The notes under the pieces: model-generated
The model's input: the letters and a program-made list of their open reading frames with translations, nothing else
What the model was told of the DNA's origin: nothing
Databases searched by the model: none
Part shown: positions 75 through 64,000 of the stretch, piece by piece
Layout of the letters: every line of letters starts with the position of its first letter
How positions within the stretch are numbered: the stretch's first letter is position 1
Source of the DNA: Lucinisca nassula
Lineage: Eukaryota > Mollusca > Bivalvia > Lucinida > Lucinidae
DNA: 64,000 nt
Direction of reading: 5' to 3'
NCBI GenBank assembly: GCA_963580285.1
Contig: OY757019.1
Coordinates: 61,772,587-61,836,586 of the forward strand
Translations under genes and position numbers: made by a program

Positions 75-311
75 TTACTCGGCGCATGTATTGCTGAAGC
101 TCTGTTGACTTGACATTAGTCTCCGGTTGCGTAACTCTTGATCGACAACAAGGCGGTCATCGCGTCCGTTAGTACTCTTCGAGTGTCCACTTCTCTGCAA
201 ATCCGCTACTGCTCCTGTCCTACGATAGCGTGCCCACCGTCGAATGGCAACTGACTGTGACGTATTCATAACATTTGGCGTCTGCAACTTTGTACTTCCG
301 GTCTGAAGCAT
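75..311 (-). pseudogene. Tc1-type transposase fragment (DNA-binding region)
   Basis: A 78-codon open frame reads like the paired-type helix-turn-helix linker of Tc1/mariner transposases: the stretch RRWARYRRTGAVADLQRSG is followed by GRDDRLVVDQELRNRRL, matching the family pattern (R-x-x-x-R-Y-x-x-T-G-x-V-x-D-x-x-R-S-G, then R-x-D-R). In complete elements this region binds the terminal inverted repeats (TIRs). No DDE catalytic domain follows, no TIR pair was seen, and the frame stops soon after the linker, so this is a broken remnant running toward the left window edge. It is unlike the Tc1 copy at 47.5-49.1 kb in detail. Family assignment comes from motif reading only. Confidence 0.65.
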
Positions 312-880: not shown

Positions 881-898
881 TGTTTTTTGGTTTGGGTT

Positions 899-1050
899 TG
901 CAGTATGTTTCCTCTCTGGCTTTCGTTGCCGGATCATTACATGGTCACTGATGAGGCTTTATTAGCCGAAACTACGTAGTATGACCCATCTTCTTTCTTA
1001 TGAATGTTTTCATTGCTCTTAAAGGAACTCATTCTTGATTTTTATTTGAC
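899..1050 (+). repeat. solo partial copy of the hammerhead-ribozyme repeat
   Basis: About 150 bp matching part of the 383-bp monomer at 25.0-26.0 kb in opposite orientation: it starts at GCAGTATGTTTCCTC and ends near TTGATTTTTATTTG. Only one incomplete monomer is present, so no monomer could be excised by two cleavages. It holds the best-paired hammerhead of the window. Confidence 0.85.
943..986 (+). ncRNA. type I hammerhead ribozyme motif (locus A)
   Basis: All core elements are intact and in order: stem I 5' strand GGTCA (943-947), CTGATGA (948-954), stem II GGCT/AGCC with loop TTATT (955-967), GAAA (968-971), short stem III ACT/AGT with loop ACGT, cleavage triplet GTA ending at 981, and stem I 3' strand TGACC (982-986), fully complementary to GGTCA. 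Hammerheads with such a tiny stem III are known from Penelope-like elements and metazoan retrozymes and usually act as dimers. Activity of this copy is inferred, not shown. Confidence 0.9.
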
Positions 1051-23881: not shown

Positions 23882-25005
23882 AGTCTCTATCACAACAGAG
23901 AGTACTCTCATATAAACTTGTCTACAGTATTCAGAGTTTCATATATCTAATGCTGCTATATTTTATGAATTAAAGCCATAATTGGTGAGTTAGTTGATAC
24001 TATGAACGACCTCATATGTGTAGTAGTAGTGGATGGGCATTCAGTTTTCTTCGATGGTGTCCCCATATTTCAGCTCCTATTTTTGTACTCATTAAAAATT
24101 TATTTGCATTTTTACCATGTTCCAATTTTTGTCAAGACAGCATTTTAGTATAAAAACTACCCACATATCTTAGGAACATGTTGATGAATTTTGATGGAAA
24201 TTGAGGACCGGTAACATTGTGTTTTAACAGACTGAATACTGATAGTCCTGATTCAGCTAAATGTGAAATTATATGATTATCATGTTTTGGTCATGTTTAA
24301 TAATACTTTACTATTGCTTTCAATTTGGAAGGCTATAGTATAGTATGGTTTGTGTAAGTAGTTCACAGCATAATTATAAGTATTATTTCAAAACATCCAT
24401 TTCAGTAAATTTTCCCCCTATGGAACAAACTGTTTTGTCTACAGAACTATACCGCAAAGGTTTTGATGACAAACGTCATCAAACGCACCCATGTAATCAT
24501 GTGCACAGTTTTCTTTTTGTCTTTCCTGTCTTATTTGGTAATGGTGCTAAGGTGATGTTTAGATTTCACATTCAAATCAACAAAATACCAGTCACTTTAG
24601 ATGTTGCTTCAGATTTTGCGAGATTTGTTATCTGACTCGAGATAAATGACTCTCAAGTAAAACTGTTGTTTGTTTATTTAACCATAACTGTCCATTTAAA
24701 AAGAAAGGTTTACTCTAGGGAAAATCAATAACACTTGAGATTACTTTTCCTGGACATTAAGTTTTCAGAATTTGTATCTGCATAGGCACTAGCCAATCTA
24801 TCTTTTGTATAGCCCCTATGAACGAAATCAAACGGCTTCCTGAAGCTGTATTCCAAAACCATTTGAATTTGCTTTTAGAATTCACATGGTCGTACATTTG
24901 TCAGTGTTCCAAAACTTATGTGATCATGATTGTGTTGTCTATATATTTGTATAGGTTTTTCACTTCATTTATCTATCTCAGCAGTTGTTGCAGTAATTAC
25001 AATTA
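23882..25005. other. no recognised feature
   Basis: AT-rich sequence; a frame at 24345-24635 has no motif I recognise and no splice context I can support. Confidence 0.5.
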
Positions 25006-25147
25006 AAAATCAAAATTGAGTTCCTTTAAGAGCAATGAAAACATTTTACGGCCGTCACACGGCACAACACCAGCTGCAGTGAAGGCAAATAAAAATCAAA
25101 AATGACTTCCATTAAGAGCAATGAAAACATTCATAAGAAAGAAGATG

Positions 25148-25192
25148 GGTCATACTACGTAGTTTCGGCTAATAAAGCCTCATCAGTGAACC
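25148..25192 (-). ncRNA. hammerhead motif, array copy 1
   Basis: On the minus strand: CTGATGA, stem II GGCT-TTATT-AGCC, GAAA, stem III ACT/AGT, site GTA. The stem I 5' strand reads GGTTCA against TGACC, an inserted/changed base that weakens stem I. Confidence 0.85.
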
Positions 25193-25530
25193 TGTAATGA
25201 TCCGACAACGAAAGTCAGAGGAAACATACTGCAATTTTGCGAATTTCGAATAGGCAGTCGATTCAAAGACTGATATAAATCAAAATGGGGTCCAAATAAT
25301 TAAAAACCTGTCTAAAATTTGAGTCTAAACAAATAATCTATTTCTGATTTCTCAGAATATTCACGCTGATCTCAAAGGACCAATAGTAAAATATAAACTG
25401 CACTATAGTTGATGTACGTGGAGACGTTTTACGGCCGCCACACGGCACAACACCAGCTGCAGTGAAGGCAAATAAAAATCAAAAATGAGTTTCTGTAAGA
25501 GCAATGAAAACATTCATAAGAAAGAAGATT

Positions 25531-25574
25531 GGTCACACTACGTAGTTTCGGCTAATAAAGCCTCATCAGTGACC
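25531..25574 (-). ncRNA. hammerhead motif, array copy 2 (site mutated)
   Basis: Perfect stem I GGTCA/TGACC, core and stem II intact, but the cleavage triplet is GTG; the rule is GUH (H not G), so this copy is probably inactive. Confidence 0.85.
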
Positions 25575-25913
25575 CTGTAATGATCCGACAAAGAAAGCCA
25601 GAGGACACATACTGCAATTTTGCGAATTTCGAATAGGCAGTCGATTCAAAGACTGATATAAATCAAAATGGGGTCCAAATAATTAAAAACCTGTCTAGAA
25701 TATGAGTCTAAAACAATAATCTATTTCTGATTTCACAGAATATTCACGCTGATCTCAAAGGACCAAAAGTAAAATATAAACTGCACTATGATTGATGTAC
25801 GGGGAGACGTTTTACGGCCGCCACACGGCACAACACCAGCTGCAGTGAAGGCAAATAAAAATCAAAAATGAGTTCCTGTAAGAGCAATGAAAACATTCAT
25901 AAGAAAGAAGATG

Positions 25914-25957
25914 GTTCATACTACGTAGTTTCGGCTAATCAAGCCTCATCAGTGACC
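25914..25957 (-). ncRNA. hammerhead motif, array copy 3
   Basis: Core intact, stem II loop TGATT instead of TTATT, site GTA. The stem I 3' strand TGAAC has one mismatch to GGTCA. Confidence 0.85.
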
Positions 25958-26041
25958 CTGTAATGATCCGACAACGAAAGCCAGAGGAAACATACTGCAA
26001 TTTTGCGAATTTCGAATAAGCAGTCGATTCAAAGACTGATA

Positions 26042-39056: not shown

Positions 39057-42000
39057 GTTTAAACAATATTTTATTCAAACTTTAGCAAATGAACAACACA
39101 AATACATAGATGTGGAATGTATGAGGATCTGAACGGAAGCCTATGGCTTATAGAGTTCATTTCCTTGTAGTATCAATAAATTCACAGCAATAAAGTTTGT
39201 CTGTGTGACAACATGAATAACTAGTTCATATCATTTAAACGCATACTATATATGTTTTTGAATAGAGAAATGAAAATATAATGAACATAAACAGGAAGGA
39301 TGATAAATGACTAAATGAGATCATGAGACCATCAGGCCAAACACCGTGGAACGCACTGTCAAGCTTGGTTCTGATCAATTCCTAGCCCAGCAGGTACACA
39401 ACGCGCAGGCAACACCGCACTAACGCCGATACAACGTCATGGCGTTGCATCGACGTCGATGCGACACCGCCCAAACGTCAGTGCGACGGGTAGGAGTGGT
39501 CGCAGAGTGGCACTCTGATTTTAATTAAACCGTTTAGTAGCCAAAATATACAACTGGACGCGTCTAAAAATGGCATTGTTCACGGTTACATTTTCATCTG
39601 TTTTCCCATTTAATAGTATATTTACTGTCAATGTCAGGCCGAGTCCAGAAAAGTAACGCTGTCTCAAGTCACTATAGTGAACACAAGTTAACAAAAAACT
39701 GAAATGATGTTTCTGGTGCTCCACACGAACAGAGGGGGCTTGCAACCAAGTTTTTATTGTATAGATGATGATTTAAGGAGCTGCATTCAAGCCTTAAACG
39801 TGTGTGCAGAATTTGTCCCAGGCGTTTGTATGGTATTATAATAGATCGGTGGAATTCGTAGTTGGGACTTGAGTTTATGCTTAAATACAAGTAAGGAGGC
39901 CGATTCTTTTACATCTTGATCCAGCAAGTTCCATTCTCTTAGAGTCGATGGTAAAAAGGAATTAAAATGGTATGTCGTTCTAGAGGCAGGTATCACATAG
40001 TTTGTAATATTTCGAAGAGTGTATCGAGGGATCAATTCTTGTAGGTAAGGAGGAGTCAGATTATTCACCATTTTATATAGTTGACATAATTTATATTTTT
40101 CGCGGCGAGTCGTTAATGGTTCTATACAAGTGTCATCATATAAAATTTGTGTACTACATAATTTAGTAGCTCCTGTGAGTATTCGAGCAGCATCAAGCTG
40201 GATATTTTCTAAGTTACGTTTATTTTCCAGACTACAGTTATCCCATATTATGTCGCCATACTCTAACAATGGCCTAACAAACGTTGTATACAGCTTAAGC
40301 AGGGAACACCTATCTAAAGCAAATTTATGTCGCCTTAATGCCCCTAATCGTTTGCAAGCCTTTTCTTGTATAGTTTTAGACTGATCATTCCATGAGAAAT
40401 CGCAAGATATCATTAACCCAAGATGTTTATGCTTTGGGATCTCCTTTATTTGAGTATCTCCCATGAACAATGGAGGATGATATAATTTTATTCTTTTCTT
40501 GGAAATGAGAAGGACCTCAGTTTTGAGGGCATTGAATAAAACTAACCATTGTTTTGCCCAAGCAAATATTTTCTTTAAATCTCCGTTTAAAGTCGCTGCG
40601 GAAGCAACAGGATCGTCAACTATTTCGAAAATACAAGTGTCATCTGCAAAAAGCCTTATGAGACTATTGATATCATTTACTATATCATTAATAAAAACAA
40701 TAAATAGCAGAGGTCCCAGGATAGAGCCCTGGGGCACACAAGCAGTATTCTTTTTCCATGAAGATGTGACGTTTCTTATGCATACACGTTGATACCTGTC
40801 CGATAGATAATTACTGAACCAATCAAGAAGTTTACCAGAGACACCTACCGACTTAAGCTTGTACAACAGACCTTTGTGCCAGACACGATCAAAGGCCTTA
40901 CTGATATCTAGAAATACTATTCTTAGTTCCTTATTGTTATCAAGCGCGCTGGTATATTTCATTACAAATATATAAAAGCTGGTTTACCGTGGAATCACCG
41001 CTCTGGAATCCGGACTGAAAGGGCGTAATGATAGAATGTTCAATTAGGTATTCAGATACATGTTTATGTATACACCGTTCCATTAGTTTACCAGCATAAT
41101 TCAATAATGAAATGGGTCTATAATTACTGGGGTTGGAGCGACTATCCTTTTTGTGAACGGCGGTTACATTAGATGTTTTCCAAGAAACAGGAAACTTTCT
41201 TACTGCCAGAGAGAGGTTAAATAGCTTCCTTAAATGAGGAATAAATACGTCTGCACCTTTTTTATACAGCCTGGGGCTTATATAGTCTGGACCAGGGGCC
41301 TTGTTCGATTTCACTGAACTAATTGCTTCCCTTACATCATCGTTTGTTATAAGTATATTTTCAAGTAATTCATAGTTCGGAGTGTGGGATTCTGGGAGCG
41401 AGGCTTGACTGTCATCTAATGTTGACTGCTCGAGAAAGTACTTGTTTAAAGTTTCTACTATTTCGTGATCAGATTGTACAATTTCATCATCAATTTCAAG
41501 AAATTGGATTGGCTGTTTATTGTTTTGAGGGATACTAATTTGATTAACTAATCTATGTCATCGTTTGGAGTTCGTGTTGCTACTTATCAGGTCATCAGTG
41601 AGTTTATCGTTGTACTGTTTCTTGGCCTCTCTTATCATTAAGGTCAGTTAATTTCGTTTCTGTTTACACTTGTTCCAGGAGACACTTGTATTTTTACGTC
41701 GAGCGTTTTTAAATAGGCGTTTCCGTTTTCTTATTTCACGTTTTATTTGTGCGTTTATCCAATCAGGTTCGTTAGGTCTAATGGTCACTGTTTTATTGGG
41801 AATTGTAGCTTTAGCTGCTTTTAAGATGGAATCTGTAAATTTATCAGCACATTCATTTATATTATTAGTTGCAAATACCTGGTCCCAGTCCACCCGAGTC
41901 AATTTGTCTCTATACTCATTATAGTCACCTCTGTCATATAGCCAGATATGTCACTTGTACGTCTTGCCAACAGGTTTTCGATATTTTAAATGCAGGACAG

Positions 42001-42237
42001 TTGGGCAATGATACCGAACAAGGTTTGGTATAAAAGGAGATATGACGTCAGAATAGAGTACGATTCAGGCTTCCAAAGGATAACCCTTTTATAGAACATA
42101 TTTAACTTCACTACAGCTGGTGTGTGGGAATGTGTGGCGACGGTAAAACGTCTCCCTGCCCTACATCATAATGTAGATTATATTTTCTTGTCCTTTGGGA
42201 TCATTGATTCCATTGTTGAATTTTGAAAATATCTGAG

Positions 42238-42281
42238 GGTCACTGATGAGGCCTAAATGGCCGAAACTAGCTAGTCTGGCC
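42238..42281 (+). ncRNA. hammerhead ribozyme, 261-bp monomer 1
   Basis: GGTCA (stem I), CTGATGA (42243-42249), stem II GGCC-TAAAT-GGCC, GAAA (42263-42266), stem III ACT/AGT with loop AGCT, site GTC ending at 42276, stem I 3' strand TGGCC (one G-U pair). All core bases present; the site GTC is the most efficient natural triplet. Confidence 0.9.
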
Positions 42282-42498
42282 CAGAAAACATGTACACTCC
42301 ATATTTTTCACTTCTGTGGTGTATTCCTTGCTTCCAAAGGATAACCCTTTTATAGAACATATTTAACTTCACTACAGCTGGTGTGTGGGAATGTGTGGCG
42401 ACGGTAAAACGTCTCCCTGCCCTACATCATAGTGTAGATTATATTTTCTTGTCCTTTGGGATCATTGATTCCATTGTTGAATTTTGAAAATATCTGAG

Positions 42499-42542
42499 GG
42501 TCACTGATGAGGCCTAAATGGCCGAAACTAGCTAGTCTGGAC
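42499..42542 (+). ncRNA. hammerhead ribozyme, 261-bp monomer 2
   Basis: Same as monomer 1; cleavage would be after 42537, exactly 261 nt downstream of the first site. The stem I 3' strand is TGGAC, which loses one pair. Confidence 0.9.
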
Positions 42543-43321
42543 AAGAAAACATGTACACTCCATATTTTTCACTTCTGTGGTGTATTCCTTGCTTCCAAAG
42601 GATAACCCTTTTATAGAACATATTTACTGACAAGAACAAGATTAATTATTGAATGCGAATTTTCAGTGTAGTGAGTTGGTTCATCTATAAGTTGATGAAA
42701 ATTATAAGAGGAAATGAGATTTGTGATTTTAGTCGAAGCAGTTGAATTCAGCATGTCATTGTTAAAGTCACCTACAATTATGATGTCCCTAGTTCCTGAA
42801 TTTGACAGACTATCAAACATGTCGTCAATTAAGTCCCAATGTGCATTAGGGGAGTTTGGTGGTCGATACATACCACAAACGAGAAGTTTATGGTGTTTTA
42901 ACATAAGTTCAATGCAAAGTCCTTCGAATTCTCCGTTGATCAAGTCTGGTCTACAAATACAGTTGAGACCAGTTCTGACATAGATCGCAATCCCACCCCC
43001 AGGTCTGTCCGTCCTATCTTTCCTATATGGTATATCAAAGTTTGAAATACGTAAGTCATCGTCTAAATTTTCTGGTTTGAGCCAGGTCTCGGTAAATACA
43101 AGTATATCATATTATTGCATTTCGGTTTCGAGAATATCCAGTTTTGGGATTAAGCTTTGTATGTTCAACTGTATTATGCTGAGATTGTGATTGAATAAAG
43201 ATGTGTTATTTGCGCCTGGAGTGTTTGATAATGAAGCACTTTCAGGACCGGGGTTTTTGTTTTTATTTGGATGTATATCATTTGATAAACTAATTTTTAT
43301 TTTTATTTGGATGTATATCAT

Positions 43322-52290: not shown

Positions 52291-52702
52291 CCGTCCAAAC
52301 CAAAAGCGGATTGTAAAACGAGTGCTGCATGCTTTTTGAATGATGGCGTGATTTACACATTTTAAGGGGATTTATATATTATTTAAAATCCAAAGTCGAA
52401 ACTATTAATAATCTCGGGGGCTCTTCCGATGCCAGGACGTTGATCCATTTTTTTTTTTTGATTATTTATTTATTTATTTATTTTTTTAAGGATTAAGTAC
52501 ACTGCAGGCCTTGGTCAAGAAACCGACTTCCTGATGGGAAACGCAGTCTCCTGTAACATGTAAGGGACGTTGGCGTGGCAAGGACTTTGGTTTTTAATCA
52601 AAAGTGCTAGAAAATATTAAGGTCGGTAGATAACAAAATCTTTTTATTTGTTTATTTTTTTCTGGATGGCAATAAAAAATGCAGGGTCGGCACAAAAAAG
52701 AT

Positions 52703-52885
52703 GTGTGTTTCATGTTTTGACTGTTGTGTTTTAATTTTTGTGTTTCATGTTTCGACTTTTGTGTTTTGACTTTTGTTGTTTTAAGGTCTAAAATACCTGT
52801 GATTCCGCTAACCTTAAAACAACAAAAGTCAAAACATGAAACACGAAAATTGAAACACAAAAGTCAAAACATGAAACACACATGT
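52703..52885. repeat. about 180-bp palindrome built of a minisatellite
   Basis: The left arm repeats GTGTTTCATGTTTTGACT; the right arm is its inverse AGTCAAAACATGAAACAC, around the centre TACCTGTGATTCCGC. Both arms end in TGTGTGTTTCATG/CATGAAACACACA. Copy B has the same at about 60657-60852 with small indels. Confidence 0.85.
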
Positions 52886-55451: not shown

Positions 55452-58080
55452 CTAAATCGTCTACAGGGCCAAAAGGTCTAGGGCCTAAACGACTAGGGCC
55501 TAATCGTCTAGATGCAAAACTTTTTGAAATCACCGAATGTTGCTAAGTGGGCCGTTTTAACCTGGGCCGTTCTGACTAAGTGTACCTCGACCGTTTTGAC
55601 ATTTGGCCGCTTTGATCTGGGCTGTTTTGACTCTGGATCGTTTTGACTGTCAAGCCCGTGTTTTACACGATCCGTCCAAACCAAAAGCGGATTGTAAAAC
55701 GAGTGCTGCATGCTTTTTAGCTCACCATCACGTAGTGATGAGGTGAGCTTTTGGGATCACTTTTTGTCCGTCGTCCGTCGTGCGTCCGTGCGTCCGTCCG
55801 TGCGTCCGTGCGTCCGTGCGTAAACAATTTCTTCAAACGACATCTCCTCCTAAACCACTGATCGGATTTTGACCAAACTTCACAGGAATGATCCTTAGGT
55901 GGTCCCCTTTCAAAGTTGTTCAAATGGTTCCGGTCCGTTGCACATCTAGGTCACAGGAGCCAAAAATAGATTTTTTTCACTGAAAACTTAAAAAATCTTC
56001 TTCTCTGAAACCACAAGGCCCAGGTCTTTGATATTTGGTATGAAGCTTCATCTAGTGGACCCCTACCAAGATTGTTCAAATTGTAGTGCTGGGGCACAAA
56101 ATGCCCCCGCCCCGGGGTCCTTTGGTTTTACATAGGCTTATATATGGAAAACCTTTAAAAATCTTCTTCTCTGAAACCACAAGGCCCAGGACTTTGATAT
56201 TTAGTATGAAGCTTCATCTAATGGACCTCTACAAAGATTGTTCAAATAATAGTGCTGGGGCCAAAAATACCCCCGCTCCATGGCCCTTTGGTTTTACATA
56301 GACTTATATAGGGAAAATCTTTAAAAATCTTCTTCTCTGAAACCACAAGGCCCAGGTCTTTGATATTTGGTATGAAGCTTCATCTAGTGAACCCCTACCA
56401 AGATTGTTCAAATCATAGTGCCTGGGCACAAAATGCCCCCGCCCCGGGGCCCTTTGGTTTTACATAGGCTTATATATGGAAAATCTTTAAAAATCTTCTT
56501 CTCTGAAACCACAAGGCCCAGGACTTTGATATTTAGTATGAAGCTTCACTTAATGGACCTCTACCAAGATTGTTCAAATTATAGTGCTGGGGCCAAAAAT
56601 GCCCCCGCTCCGGGGCCCTTTGGTTTTACATAGACTTATATAGGGAAAGTCTTTAAAAATCTTCTTCTCTGAAACCACATGGCCTAGGTCTTCGATATTT
56701 GATATGAAGCTTCATCTAATGGACCTCTACCAAGATTGTTCAAATTATAGCCCTTGGGCCAAAAATGCCCCCGCTCCGGGACCCTTTGGTTTTACATAGA
56801 CTTATATAGGGAAAATCTTTATAAATCTTCTTCTCTGAAACCACAAGACCTAGGTCTTTGATATTTGGTATGAAGCTTCATCTATAGGACCCCTACCAAG
56901 ATTGTTCAAATTATAGTGCTGGGGCCAAAAATGCCCCCCCCCCCTCCCCCCGGGGCCCTTTGGTTTTACATAGGCTTATACAGGGATAATCTTTAAAAAT
57001 CTTCTTCTCTGAAACCGCAAAGCCCAGGACTTTGATATTTGGTATGAAGCTTCATCTAATGGACCTCTACCAAGAATGTTCAAATTATAGCCCTGGGGCC
57101 AAAACTGCCCCCGCTCTGGGGCCCTTTGGTTTTACATAGACTTATATAGGGAAAATCTTTAAAAATCTTCTTCTCTGAAACCACAAGGCCTAGTCCTTTG
57201 ATATTTTGTGTGAAGCTTCATCTAGTGGACCTATATCAAGATTGTTCAAATTATAGCCCTGGGACCAAAAATGTCCCCGCTCTCGGGCCCTTTGGTTTTA
57301 CATAGACTTATATAGGGAAAATCTTAAAAAATCTTCTTCTCTGAAACTGCATGGCCAAGGACTTTGATATTTGGTATGAAGCTTCATCTAAAGGACCCCT
57401 ACTAAGATTGTTCAAATTATAGCCCTTTGGCAAAAAGTGCCCCCACTGGGAGGCCCTTTGGTTTTACATGGACTTATATAGCGAAAATCTTCTTCTCTGA
57501 AACCACAAGGCCTAGGTCTTTGATATTTGGTGTGAAATTTCATCTAGTGGACCTCTATCAAGATTGTTCAAATTATAGCCCTGGGGCCAAAAATGTCACC
57601 GCCCTGAGACCTTTTGGTTTTACATAGTCTTATAAAGGGAAATATTTAAAAATCTTCTTCTCTGAAACTGCAAGGCCCATGTCTTTGATATTTGGTATGA
57701 AGCTTCATCTAGTGGACCTCTACCAAGATTGTTCCAAATTATAGCCCTGGGGCCACAAATGTCCCCAGCCCGGGACCCTTTGGTTTTACATAGACTTATA
57801 TAGCCCCGATGCAAATTTGGTTTTACATAGGCTTATGTATGGAATATCTTTAAAAAAATCTTCTTCTCTGAAACCGCAAGGCCCAGTTCCTTGATATTTG
57901 GTGTGTAGCTTCATCTCGACGACCTTTGCCAAGATTGTTCATATTATAGCCTTTGTTGATGTTTGGTATGAAGCTTCACCTTTAAGACCTCCCTCAGCAT
58001 TATGCACATTAAAGCCCTGGGGCCAATAATGACCCTCCCTGGGACCCACTTGTTACACTATGGATCAGGTGAGCGATCCA

Positions 58081-58102
58081 GGGCCATCATGGCCCTCTTG
58101 TG
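58081..58102 (+). terminator. internal 3' stem-loop of HINE unit 1
   Basis: GGGCCATCATGGCCC followed by TCTTG, identical to the terminal one. In Helitron-type elements this hairpin marks the replication stop; here it was read through. Confidence 0.6.
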
Positions 58103-60047
58103 TTTTATATTAGGATCACTTTTTGTCTGTCATCCGTGCGTAAACAATTTCTACAAACGACATCTCCTCCTTAACCACTGATCGGATTTTGACCAAACTT
58201 CACAGGAATGATCCTTAGGTGGTCCCCTTTCAAAGTTGTTCAAATGGTTCTGGTCCGTTGCACATATATGTCACAGGAGCCAAAAATAGATTTTTTTCAC
58301 CGAAAACTTAAAAAATCTTCTTCCCTGAAACCGCAAGGCCCAGGACTTTAATATTTGGTATGAAGCTTCACCTAGTGGACTCCTACCAAAATTGTTCAAA
58401 TTATAGTGCTGGGGCCAAACATGACCCAGCACCAGGGCCCTTTGGTTTTACACAGGCATATACATGTATAGGGAAATTCTTTAAAAATCTTCTTCTCTGA
58501 AACGCAAGGCCCAGGTCTTTGATATTTGGTATGAAGCTTCATCTAGTGGACCCCTACCAAGATTATTCATATTATAGTGCTGGGACCAAAAATGCCCCCG
58601 CCCCAGGGCCCTTTGGTTTTACATGGGCTTATATTGGGAAAATCTTTAAAAATCTTCTTCTCTCAAAACGCAAGGCCTAGGTCTTTGGTATTTGGTATGA
58701 AGCTTCATCTAGTGGACCCCTACCAAGATTGTTCAAATGATAGTGCTGGGGGAAAAATGCCCCTGCCCTGGGGCCCTTTTGTTTCACATGGGCTTATATA
58801 GGGAAAATCTTTAAAAATCTTCTTCTCTGAAACCGCATGGCCCAGGTCTTTGATATTTGGTATGAAGCTTCATCTAGTGGACCCCTACCAAGATTGTTCA
58901 AATAATAGTGGCGGGGGCAAAATGCCCCTGCCCTGGGGCCCTTTTGTTTCACATGGCCTTATATAGGGAAAATCTTTAAAAATCTTCTTCTCTGAAACCG
59001 CAAGGCCCAGGTCTTTGATATTTGGTATGAAGCTTCATCTAGTGGACCCCTGCCAAGATTGTTCAAATAATAGTGGCGGGGCCAAAGATGCCCCCGCCCC
59101 GGGGCCCTTTTGTTTCACATGGGCTTATATAGGGAAAATCTTTAAAAATCTTCTTCTCTTAAACCGCAAGGCCCAGGTCTTGGCTATTTGGTTTCAAGCT
59201 TCATCTAGTGGACCCCTACCAAGATTGTTCAAATAATAGTGCTGGGGCCAAAAATGCCCCCGCCCCGGGGCCCTTTTGTTTCACATGGGCTTATATAGGG
59301 AAAATCTTTAAAACTCTTCTTCTCTGAAACTGCAAGGCCCAGGTCTTTGCTATTTGGTATGAAGCTTCATCTAGTGGACCCCTACCAAGATTGTTCAAAT
59401 TATAGTGCTGGGCCCAAAAATGCTCCCGCCCGGGGCCCTTTTGTTTTACATGGGCTTATATAGGGAAAATCTTTGAAAATCTTCTTCTCTGAAACTGCAA
59501 GGCCTGATATTTGGTATGAAGCTTCATCTTGTGGACCTCTACCAAGATCGTTCAAATTATAGCCCTGGGGCCAAAAATGCCCCCCCCAGGGGCCCTTTGG
59601 TTTGACATAGACTTATATAGGGAAAATTTTGAAAAATCTTCTTCTCTGAAACCACAAGGCTTAGGTCTTTGATATTTGGTATGAAGCTTCAGCTAATGGA
59701 CCTCTACCAAGATTGTTCAAATTATAGCCCTGCGGCCAAAAATGCCCCTGCCTCTGGGCCCTTTGGTTTTACATAGACTTATATCGGGAAAATTTGTAAA
59801 AAATTTTCTTCTGTGATACCATAACTTGATGATAAGGCCTAGGTCTTTGATATTTGGTGTGAAATTTGATCTAGTGGACCTCTATCAAGATTGTTCAAAT
59901 TATAGCCCTGGGACCAAAAATGCCCCCGCCCCGAGACCCTTTGGTTTTACATAGGCTTATATAGGGAAAATCTTTAAAAATCCTTGGGGTCAATAATGGC
60001 CCTCCTCGGGGCCCACTTGTTACTCTATGGATCAGGTGAGCGATCCA

Positions 60048-60440: not shown

Positions 60441-60656
60441 TTTTAAGGATTAAGTACACTGCAGGCCTTGGTCAAGAAACCGACTTCCTGATGGGACACG
60501 CAGTCTCCTGTAACATGTAAGGGACGTTGGCGAGGCAAGGACTTTGGTTTTTAATCAAAAGTGCTAGAAAATATTAAGGACGGTAGATAACAAAATCTTT
60601 TTATTTGTTTATTTTTTTCTGGATGGCAATAAAAAATGCAGGGTCGGCACAAAAAA

Positions 60657-60852
60657 GATGTGTGTTTCATGTTTTGACTTTTGTGTTTTAATTTTTGTGT
60701 TTCATGTTTCGACTTTTGTGTTTTGACTTTTGTTGTTTTAAGGTCTAAAAATAGCTGTGATTCCGCTAACCTTAAAACAACAAAAGTCAAAAGTCAAAAC
60801 ATGAAACACGAAAATTGAAACACAAAAGTCAAAACATGAAACACACATGTCA
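60657..60852. repeat. minisatellite palindrome (copy B)
   Basis: Copy B of the 52.7 kb palindrome with an extra AAAGTC unit in the right arm. Confidence 0.85.
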
Positions 60853-63399: not shown

Positions 63400-64000
63400 A
63401 TGGCCCAGGCTTTAAACCGTTTATTTCTTGGTCGGGGCTTGAACTTTCATGTCTGTTTCTTGACCCATCGGGGTTTATTTTAAGGTTTCGTTTGCTCCAG
63501 TGATCTTGTATGAAGCATCGGATGTCTCAACGCGTTGGACTGTCGAGTCCTCATTCTTGAATCCCCTTAGTTTAGTGATTTCCTTGTTACCCCCAGTGGA
63601 ATTCGTTTCACTGACCGTTCCAATGCGGTTCTTCTGTCGCGGTTTATTTTTGTAATGGTTTGTCTTTGAGTGTTTGTATCGCTTATAATATTTTGGATAG
63701 CCTTTCTTGACCCATCGGGGTTTATTTTAAGGTTTCGTTTGCTCCAGTGATCTTGTATGAAGCATCGGATGTCTCAACGCGTTGGACTGTCGAGTCCTCA
63801 TTCTTGAATCCCCTTAGTTTAGTGATTTCCTTGTTACCCCCAGTGGAATTCGTTTCACTGACCGTTCCAATGCGGTTCTTCTGTCGCGGTTTATTTTTGT
63901 AATGGTTTGTCTTTGAGTGTTTGTATCGCTTATAATATTTTGGATAGCCAATTGGCCATTTTGTTGGATAGTATCTGTCCTTTTGGCTTTCTTCTATTGA
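63400..64000 (+). repeat. PLE 3' UTR with internal 247-bp tandem duplication, runs off the window
   Basis: TTTCTTGACCCATCGGGG starts at 63456 and again at 63703 (period 247). Each unit carries TTTGCTCCAGTGATCTTG, GACTGTCGAGTCCTCATTC, CTGACCGTTCCAATGCGG and TTTTGGATAGCC. The second unit continues into the normal ATTGGCCATTTTG 3' part. Confidence 0.8.

Follow-up and report, generated by a model that had tools for sequence, protein, structure and literature searches.

Hammerhead retrozyme arrays in the bivalve Lucinisca nassula share a fixed internal 3′ end beside a conserved RNA block

Nearly all sampled retrozyme insertions in the genome of Lucinisca nassula end on their 3′ side at one position of the repeat unit and are variable at the other end, a combination that constitutes an insertion signature. 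The array of 261-bp units at 42069-42626 of the window (the whole 64,000-nucleotide stretch of DNA analysed, from contig OY757019.1, to which positions given without a locus name refer) is classed on its sequence anatomy as a metazoan non-LTR retrozyme; it is a known kind of element, and the new part is the insertion signature. The array is probably a non-autonomous retrozyme that was copied from a fixed internal start on circular or multimeric RNA by a reverse transcriptase (RT) supplied in trans. A first-pass annotation of the same DNA had called the array retrozyme-like and its insertion compatible with reverse transcription of a circular or multimeric RNA; the genomic copies described below support retrozyme identity and an origin by multi-round copying.

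Published accounts leave the mobilisation of animal retrozymes open and propose LINEs or Penelope elements (PMC7229834, PMC7761336, PMC11722881). In the mainly open-access literature searched, neither a fixed 3′ end nor a target motif is described for these elements. A fixed internal start beside a shared RNA block, together with a target motif, makes mobilisation directly testable by biochemical means, and the fixed-end scar is a diagnostic that can be sought in other genomes.

Anatomy of the array and its hammerhead ribozymes

The array is a tandem repeat (Table 1) for which TRF reports a period of 261, 2.1 copies and 98% matches, the two full monomers differing at 3 of 261 positions. Units of 261 bp in 2.14 copies fall within the range of about 150-450 bp for tandem retrozyme units, and the GC fraction of 0.394 (39.4%) is below the 50% ceiling for such elements. 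Long coding frames of its own are absent, as is also expected of a retrozyme: the longest stop-to-stop frame lying fully within the array has 51 codons, the longest one leaving it into the left flank has 59, and a 166-codon frame of the host LINE penetrates it by 16 nt. Elsewhere in the window, 63456-63949 is a perfect tandem duplication (247 bp, 2.0 copies, 100% by TRF), and two similar palindromic TTTTGTGTTTCA repeats (52701-52883 and 60656-60851) draw sub-threshold miRNA hits in Rfam.

Table 1. Positions of the 261-bp array, its parts, related 383-bp copies and the host LINE in the window
Feature	Position	Strand	Basis
261-bp retrozyme array, 2.14 copies	42069..42626	+	TRF and monomer comparison
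Array parts: two full units and a 36-bp stub	42069-42329, 42330-42590 (full units), 42591-42626 (stub)	+	
Microhomology GCTT at the 5′ junction, shared with target GGCTTACTG	42069..42072	+	Empty sites L093-L098
Conserved block CTTCACTACAGCTGG...GATCA, possibly structured RNA, also in the 383-bp family	42106..42203	+	Alignments, fold
Conserved block, second copy	42367..42464	+	As for the block at 42106..42203
Predicted hammerhead copy 1, cut after 42276 (GTC)	42235..42284	+	Core pattern, intact stem I
Predicted hammerhead copy 2 (two C>A changes weaken stem I), cut after 42537	42496..42545	+	Core pattern
Fixed 3′ end (..ATATTTA), putative RT start; TTA common to target	42620..42626	+	Shared end in sampled loci; empty site
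Host LINE, endonuclease region upstream of the insertion	42611..43111	-	PF03372 (Exo_endo_phos) E 1.5e-9, PF14529 E 1e-7; frame
Host LINE, remainder: endonuclease end, linker, RT, frame breaks	39787..42064	-	PF00078, reading frames
Related 383-bp array, three hammerheads, same end landmark after an internal deletion	25000..26041	-	TRF, alignment, end by eye
Truncated single 383-family copy, one hammerhead, end at u382, 67 nt past the hammerhead cut	898..1048	+	

Two matches to the hammerhead core pattern CTGATGA..CGAAA..GTC lie in the window, spaced by 261 nt (42243-42276 and 42504-42537), where 0.06 would be expected by chance. Each 261-bp unit carries the complete type I core expected of a metazoan non-LTR retrozyme (CTGATGA-GGCC-TAAAT-GGCC-GAAAC-TAGCTA-GTC), yet the core lies below the Rfam gathering score: a scan of the window with Rfam returned no family at that level, copy 1 reaching 19.5 bits (E 4.4) against HH9. 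For this reason the hammerheads are identified from the full core, the stem pairing and the copies in the genome. In copy 1 stem I pairs as GGGTCA/TGGCCC, and in copy 2 two C>A changes (TGGACA) leave a weaker stem. A survey of the fetched loci, from which repeats of one insertion were excluded, recovered by pattern 113 copies with an intact core, 103 of them of the 261 type. Stem I is fully paired (6/6) in 82 of these 103, with 5/6 pairs in 16 and 4/6 in five; stem II reads GGCC/GGCC in 105 of the 113, GGCT/AGCC (both sides changed) in six and GGCT/GGCC in two. The first-pass annotation is thus borne out in its description of two exact 261-bp monomers plus a stub, of hammerheads with GTC sites 261 nt apart, of a full core in both copies and of a near-perfect stem I in monomer 1.

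The host LINE and the empty site

By sequence, the flanks of the array are a decayed LINE on the minus strand, presumably of the CR1/jockey-like kind named by an earlier reader. RVT_1 (PF00078) matches lie in two frames, 40940-41557(-) and 39787-40962(-), and a Pfam search of the short LINE piece 41951-42064 gave no hit. The flanks were joined into a 310-nt query, and all 39 candidate places in the genome were scored; 19 of them match nearly the whole query at 94-97% identity and lack the array, which is therefore absent from some copies of that retrotransposon. Six of the 19 (L093-L098) were read through the empty site and are clean. Although the array sits within the LINE, these 19 near full-length matches and the six copies read across the site refute the reading that it has long belonged to the LINE family, to which we assign practically no probability.

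The empty site in the LINE copies is ACGTTTTCAGGCTTACTGACAAG (one of the six reads ACATTTTCAGG..) and the filled site is ACGATTCAG[GCTTCC...CATATTTA]CTGACAAG. Comparison of the two implies that array and target have GCTT in common at the 5′ junction and TTA at the 3′ one, and that any target duplication amounts to 0-2 bp. Earlier claims thus hold here as well: the array does split the endonuclease region of a minus-strand LINE, as Pfam and the empty LINE copies attest, and the comparison with array-free LINE copies that had been recommended defines the junction, with its short duplication mixed with microhomology.

Genomic copies end at one position of the unit

With loop 2 left free, the hammerhead core has 9957 + 9739 exact occurrences (19,696) in the 2.93-Gb genome and the reversed-pattern control has 0 + 0, as expected of a dispersed multicopy element. 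Array ends were examined in an unselected sample drawn from the first places of the core listing on contig C1 and picked without regard to where arrays end, which gave 50 loci, or 42 distinct ones after eight overlapping loci had been removed. In unit coordinates (u, counted from TRF monomer position 37), an array end falls at u253-u3 in 37 of the 42 loci by script (chance 12/261; p 2e-44) and in 40 of 42 once L043, L052 and L078 had been read by eye. Ten of the 42 loci consist of several pieces and were counted if any one piece ended at u253-u3; among single-piece loci the script finds the end there in 29 of 32. Two loci (L074 and L086) have ends off the fixed position, and secondary ends occur elsewhere at L069 (u204), L075 (u247) and L081 (u92).

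A second set, selected by similarity, comprised 39 loci and the window; 18 of its loci share one common flank and three share another, which leaves 21 contexts, and 19 of these end at monomer position 33-38. Of the other two, L026 is a misfit that ends at monomer position 176, and the end of the long array L027 lies beyond the fetched stretch.

The other end of the arrays behaves differently, with starts spread over the whole unit. A bunching of 5′ ends (18 of 62, expected 5.0) at u54-74, where the predicted block structure has its 3′ arm, is suggestive at most, since the way the loci were sampled makes starts in u1-138 more likely to be caught and the bin was picked after the data had been seen. 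The fixed end lies 89 nt 3′ of the hammerhead cut in the 261-bp unit, and the inserted end therefore differs from the end that the ribozyme makes. In 18 of the 19 arrays compared (the exception being L048), units resemble their array mates more closely than they resemble units from elsewhere, mean identity being 0.970 within arrays and 0.937 between them.

One retrozyme insertion, mostly a trimer, recurs at 18 loci (L003, L008, L011 and 15 others) because each holds a copy of the same larger repeat, with about 1.2 kb of common flank on each side at 97-99.6% identity; L036 has a dimer. The exact trimer with the same start and end at 18 loci was considered as a full-length element and rejected, as it is a single insertion carried by the larger repeat. 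Some copies have thus spread as passengers of other DNA.

A related 383-bp family and its shared block

The first-pass annotation listed the 261-bp array as a second, shorter array of the window; its kinship with the 383-bp array on the minus strand, like the fixed 3′ end and the target motif, goes beyond that description. Alignment shows that the 383-bp and 261-bp units have in common the hammerhead region and, in addition, about 98 nt of conserved block, spelled CTTCACTRCAGCTGG..GTAAAACGTCTCC, which starts one nucleotide past the fixed end and two positions after the putative RT start. The predicted fold of the block has a z score of -2.71 in the 261 type and of -1.0, barely better than shuffles, in the 383 type, and covariation of its outer helix is weak (57 of 500 shuffles attain the score).

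Copies of the 383 family end at u380-382 in the window (898-1048) and at L067, L073 and L076, further pieces in L056 and L076 extend past the fetched stretch, and the main 383-bp array of the window ends, by eye, in the same landmark sequence. At L067 (1339-2351) the fixed end of a 261 array abuts a 383 array, which starts inside its own hammerhead, with TTTA common to both; judged from its sequence, this chimera is likely to record a template jump at the fixed site. A related repeat on the minus strand of L030 (1010-1114 and 1291-1353) has the shared block and a similar end and carries no hammerhead core.

Target motif and junctions

Target sequence was studied at 51 pooled sites, prefiltered for the standard end, for 22 of which an empty relative was found in fetched sequence. 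CTT beginning -4 to -1 of the 3′ junction is present at 13 of the 22 empty sites against a background of 7.4% (p 5e-10); T occupies position -2 at 17 of these sites and position -1 at 18. With four sites that lie in a single satellite excluded, the motif is present at 12 of 18. Where an empty relative is lacking, the left flank alone shows CTT near the junction at 7 of 29 sites against 21%, which is no enrichment. Relatives of a 166-bp satellite, present in the window at 55982-59982, have been hit by retrozymes at one spot in L006 and L076 (ACATAGACTTATATAGGG). By eye, a 383 copy in L076 occupies the same satellite spot as the 261 insertions of L006 and L076.

Direct repeats at the 51 pooled junctions do not exceed the swapped-flank and flank controls. 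At a few other sites an overlap of up to 5-7 bp is readable by eye, mixed with microhomology. A regular target site duplication is not supported on these grounds, junction repeats being at control level and the overlap at empty sites small and mixed with microhomology. Hairpin or cruciform targets, hinted at by the first 20 sites, were rejected when the signal was lost with 51 (p 0.33 for DNA folding); of the four window sizes in the hairpin test, a single one still yielded p 0.02 in comparison with swapped flanks and 0.08 with flank controls.

The array ends and the target motif weigh against spread at the DNA level, in which satellite units would move as extrachromosomal circles or by means of a rolling-circle (Helitron-like) transposon. 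The tandem arrangement of the units and the 18 loci within one larger repeat of high identity would suit such a route, but randomly opened circles would not yield one fixed and one variable end, and the target motif is CTT, not the A to T step at which Helitrons insert. The more than 19,000 exact hammerhead cores and the clean insertion in a single LINE copy in the window also speak against it, and we consider DNA-level spread very improbable as the main route.

A model for mobilisation

In the reading that we consider probable, RNA copying from a fixed internal start, transcripts of 261-nt units, each with a type I hammerhead, would be cut into monomers and circularised, as in the published family. 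An RT supplied in trans would load beside the conserved, possibly structured RNA block, and cDNA synthesis would start at a fixed internal ..ACAUAUU(UA), directly 5′ of the block, with the hammerhead cut some 90 nt further 5′, a start position taken from the genomic ends. The primer would be the target nicked at CTT (often RCTT), its complementary ..AA-3′ pairing with UU of the start site; the motif comes from the recovered empty sites, and the nick and the pairing are proposed steps. The RT would then travel around the circle or along a multimer and halt at variable points, after which the cDNA end would be joined to the target by short microhomology with little or no target duplication. The outcome in the window would be the 2.14-mer in the endonuclease region of the LINE.

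A linear multimer with a 3′ end processed or terminated at the same point would leave equal scars, and this leads to a rival in which no circle takes part: a LINE would copy linear multimeric retrozyme RNA from an ordinary 3′ end at u260, produced by termination or processing 5′ of the block. A fixed 3′ end with a variable 5′ end is what ordinary target-primed reverse transcription leaves, and the likeness of units within arrays is equally expected from the transcript of an older, homogenised array. Several features of the insertions are less readily accommodated. The duplication signal at the 51 pooled junctions is not above controls and is little or none at the empty site of the window, and neither a simple-repeat nor a poly(A) tail is present in the listed junctions. 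Units of the 261 and 383 families differ in their 3′ tails, yet have the same block just past the start, as would be expected if the enzyme recognised sequence 3′ of the start and not a shared tail. The chimera at L067 is, moreover, joined at an internal site. Copying of linear RNA by a LINE thus appears unlikely, though it keeps a real share of the probability.

For copying from an internal start, a Penelope-like RT is the preferred candidate helper, because a start 67-90 nt 3′ of the hammerhead cut resembles the internal initiation described for one Penelope-like element; the match between this spacing and one of about 85-92 nt could be coincidence. GIY-YIG matches number at least 138 in the genome (150 of 746 candidates having been scored), in frames of up to 820 aa. 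Two of these elements, G000:C6:63493280-63494950 (L099) and G000:C17:120265480-120266039 (L100), are probably Penelope-like, which we assume from the GIY-YIG match and what we take to be the beginning of an RT frame; L099 has an upstream frame with an RG-rich end ahead of the next frame. The hammerhead core and the retrozyme block are absent from the parts of the two families that were read (1,671 and 560 nt). The single spelling CTGATGAN{8,22}CGAAACGTC, which we take to be a minimal Penelope-type hammerhead, is nearly absent, with six genome matches (control 2), two of the six being retrozyme-like. That a Penelope partner was not found in the GIY-YIG regions read or by this minimal hammerhead spelling is a point in favour of LINE copying of linear RNA. 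The location of the internal 3′ end 3′ of the hammerhead agrees with Penelope mobilisation as described in PMC11167929.

A broader proposal, which we regard as evenly balanced between right and wrong, is that retrozyme RNAs of different length share an RT-start module consisting of the fixed start and the block. One helper would then insert copies of small RNA circles at CTT targets, switching at times from one circle to another, and the hammerhead would make the template rather than the inserted end.

Comparison with known systems

Penelope elements or LINEs were proposed as retrozyme helpers by Cervera and de la Pena 2020 (PMC7229834). The metazoan non-LTR retrozymes of that paper resemble the array described here in having a type I hammerhead, a unit of 170-400 nt, dimers to multimers, low GC and multiple genomic copies. 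In the portion of the paper available, duplications, when present, exceed 4 bp and a fixed end is not mentioned, whereas the window array has a fixed 3′ end, a target motif and no clear duplication. Plant LTR retrozymes (PMC7761336, PMC11722881, PMC4918200) are likewise non-autonomous retroelements bearing hammerheads, and their RNA is circular, but as described there they have type III hammerheads, LTRs, PBS, PPT and 4-bp duplications; identity with them was rejected, the core order in the window being of type I and the duplication 0-2 bp. The Pen2 element of Adineta vaga (PMC3846280) offers a closer parallel at the insertion site, with a partial tandem in a non-LTR retrotransposon, no duplication and a 5′ microhomology junction, although Pen2 encodes RT and endonuclease and other copies have duplications of 8-10 bp.

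For one Penelope-like element, Frangieh et al. 2024 (PMC11167929) report that the RT initiates internally at +111..118 and that the hammerhead cuts at +26. Initiation depends on template RNA beyond the start, as far as +172, and copies in the genome end at the start sites. The element in question, PAc (Poseidon, Anolis; PMC11167929), resembles the retrozymes described here in that its copies end at the internal RT start, about 85-92 nt 3′ of the hammerhead cut. It differs in carrying its own RT and endonuclease and in a hammerhead described there with stems I and II only; its likeness to the 261 unit lies in the layout. The preferred cut motif of this Anolis element is ATT in AT-rich DNA, against RCTT here. 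The layout common in kind to PAc and to the 261 and 383 units is a hammerhead cut, an interval (67-90 nt here) and the start, followed by RNA that is needed 3′ of the start in PAc (PMC11167929) and by the conserved block in the retrozymes of L. nassula.
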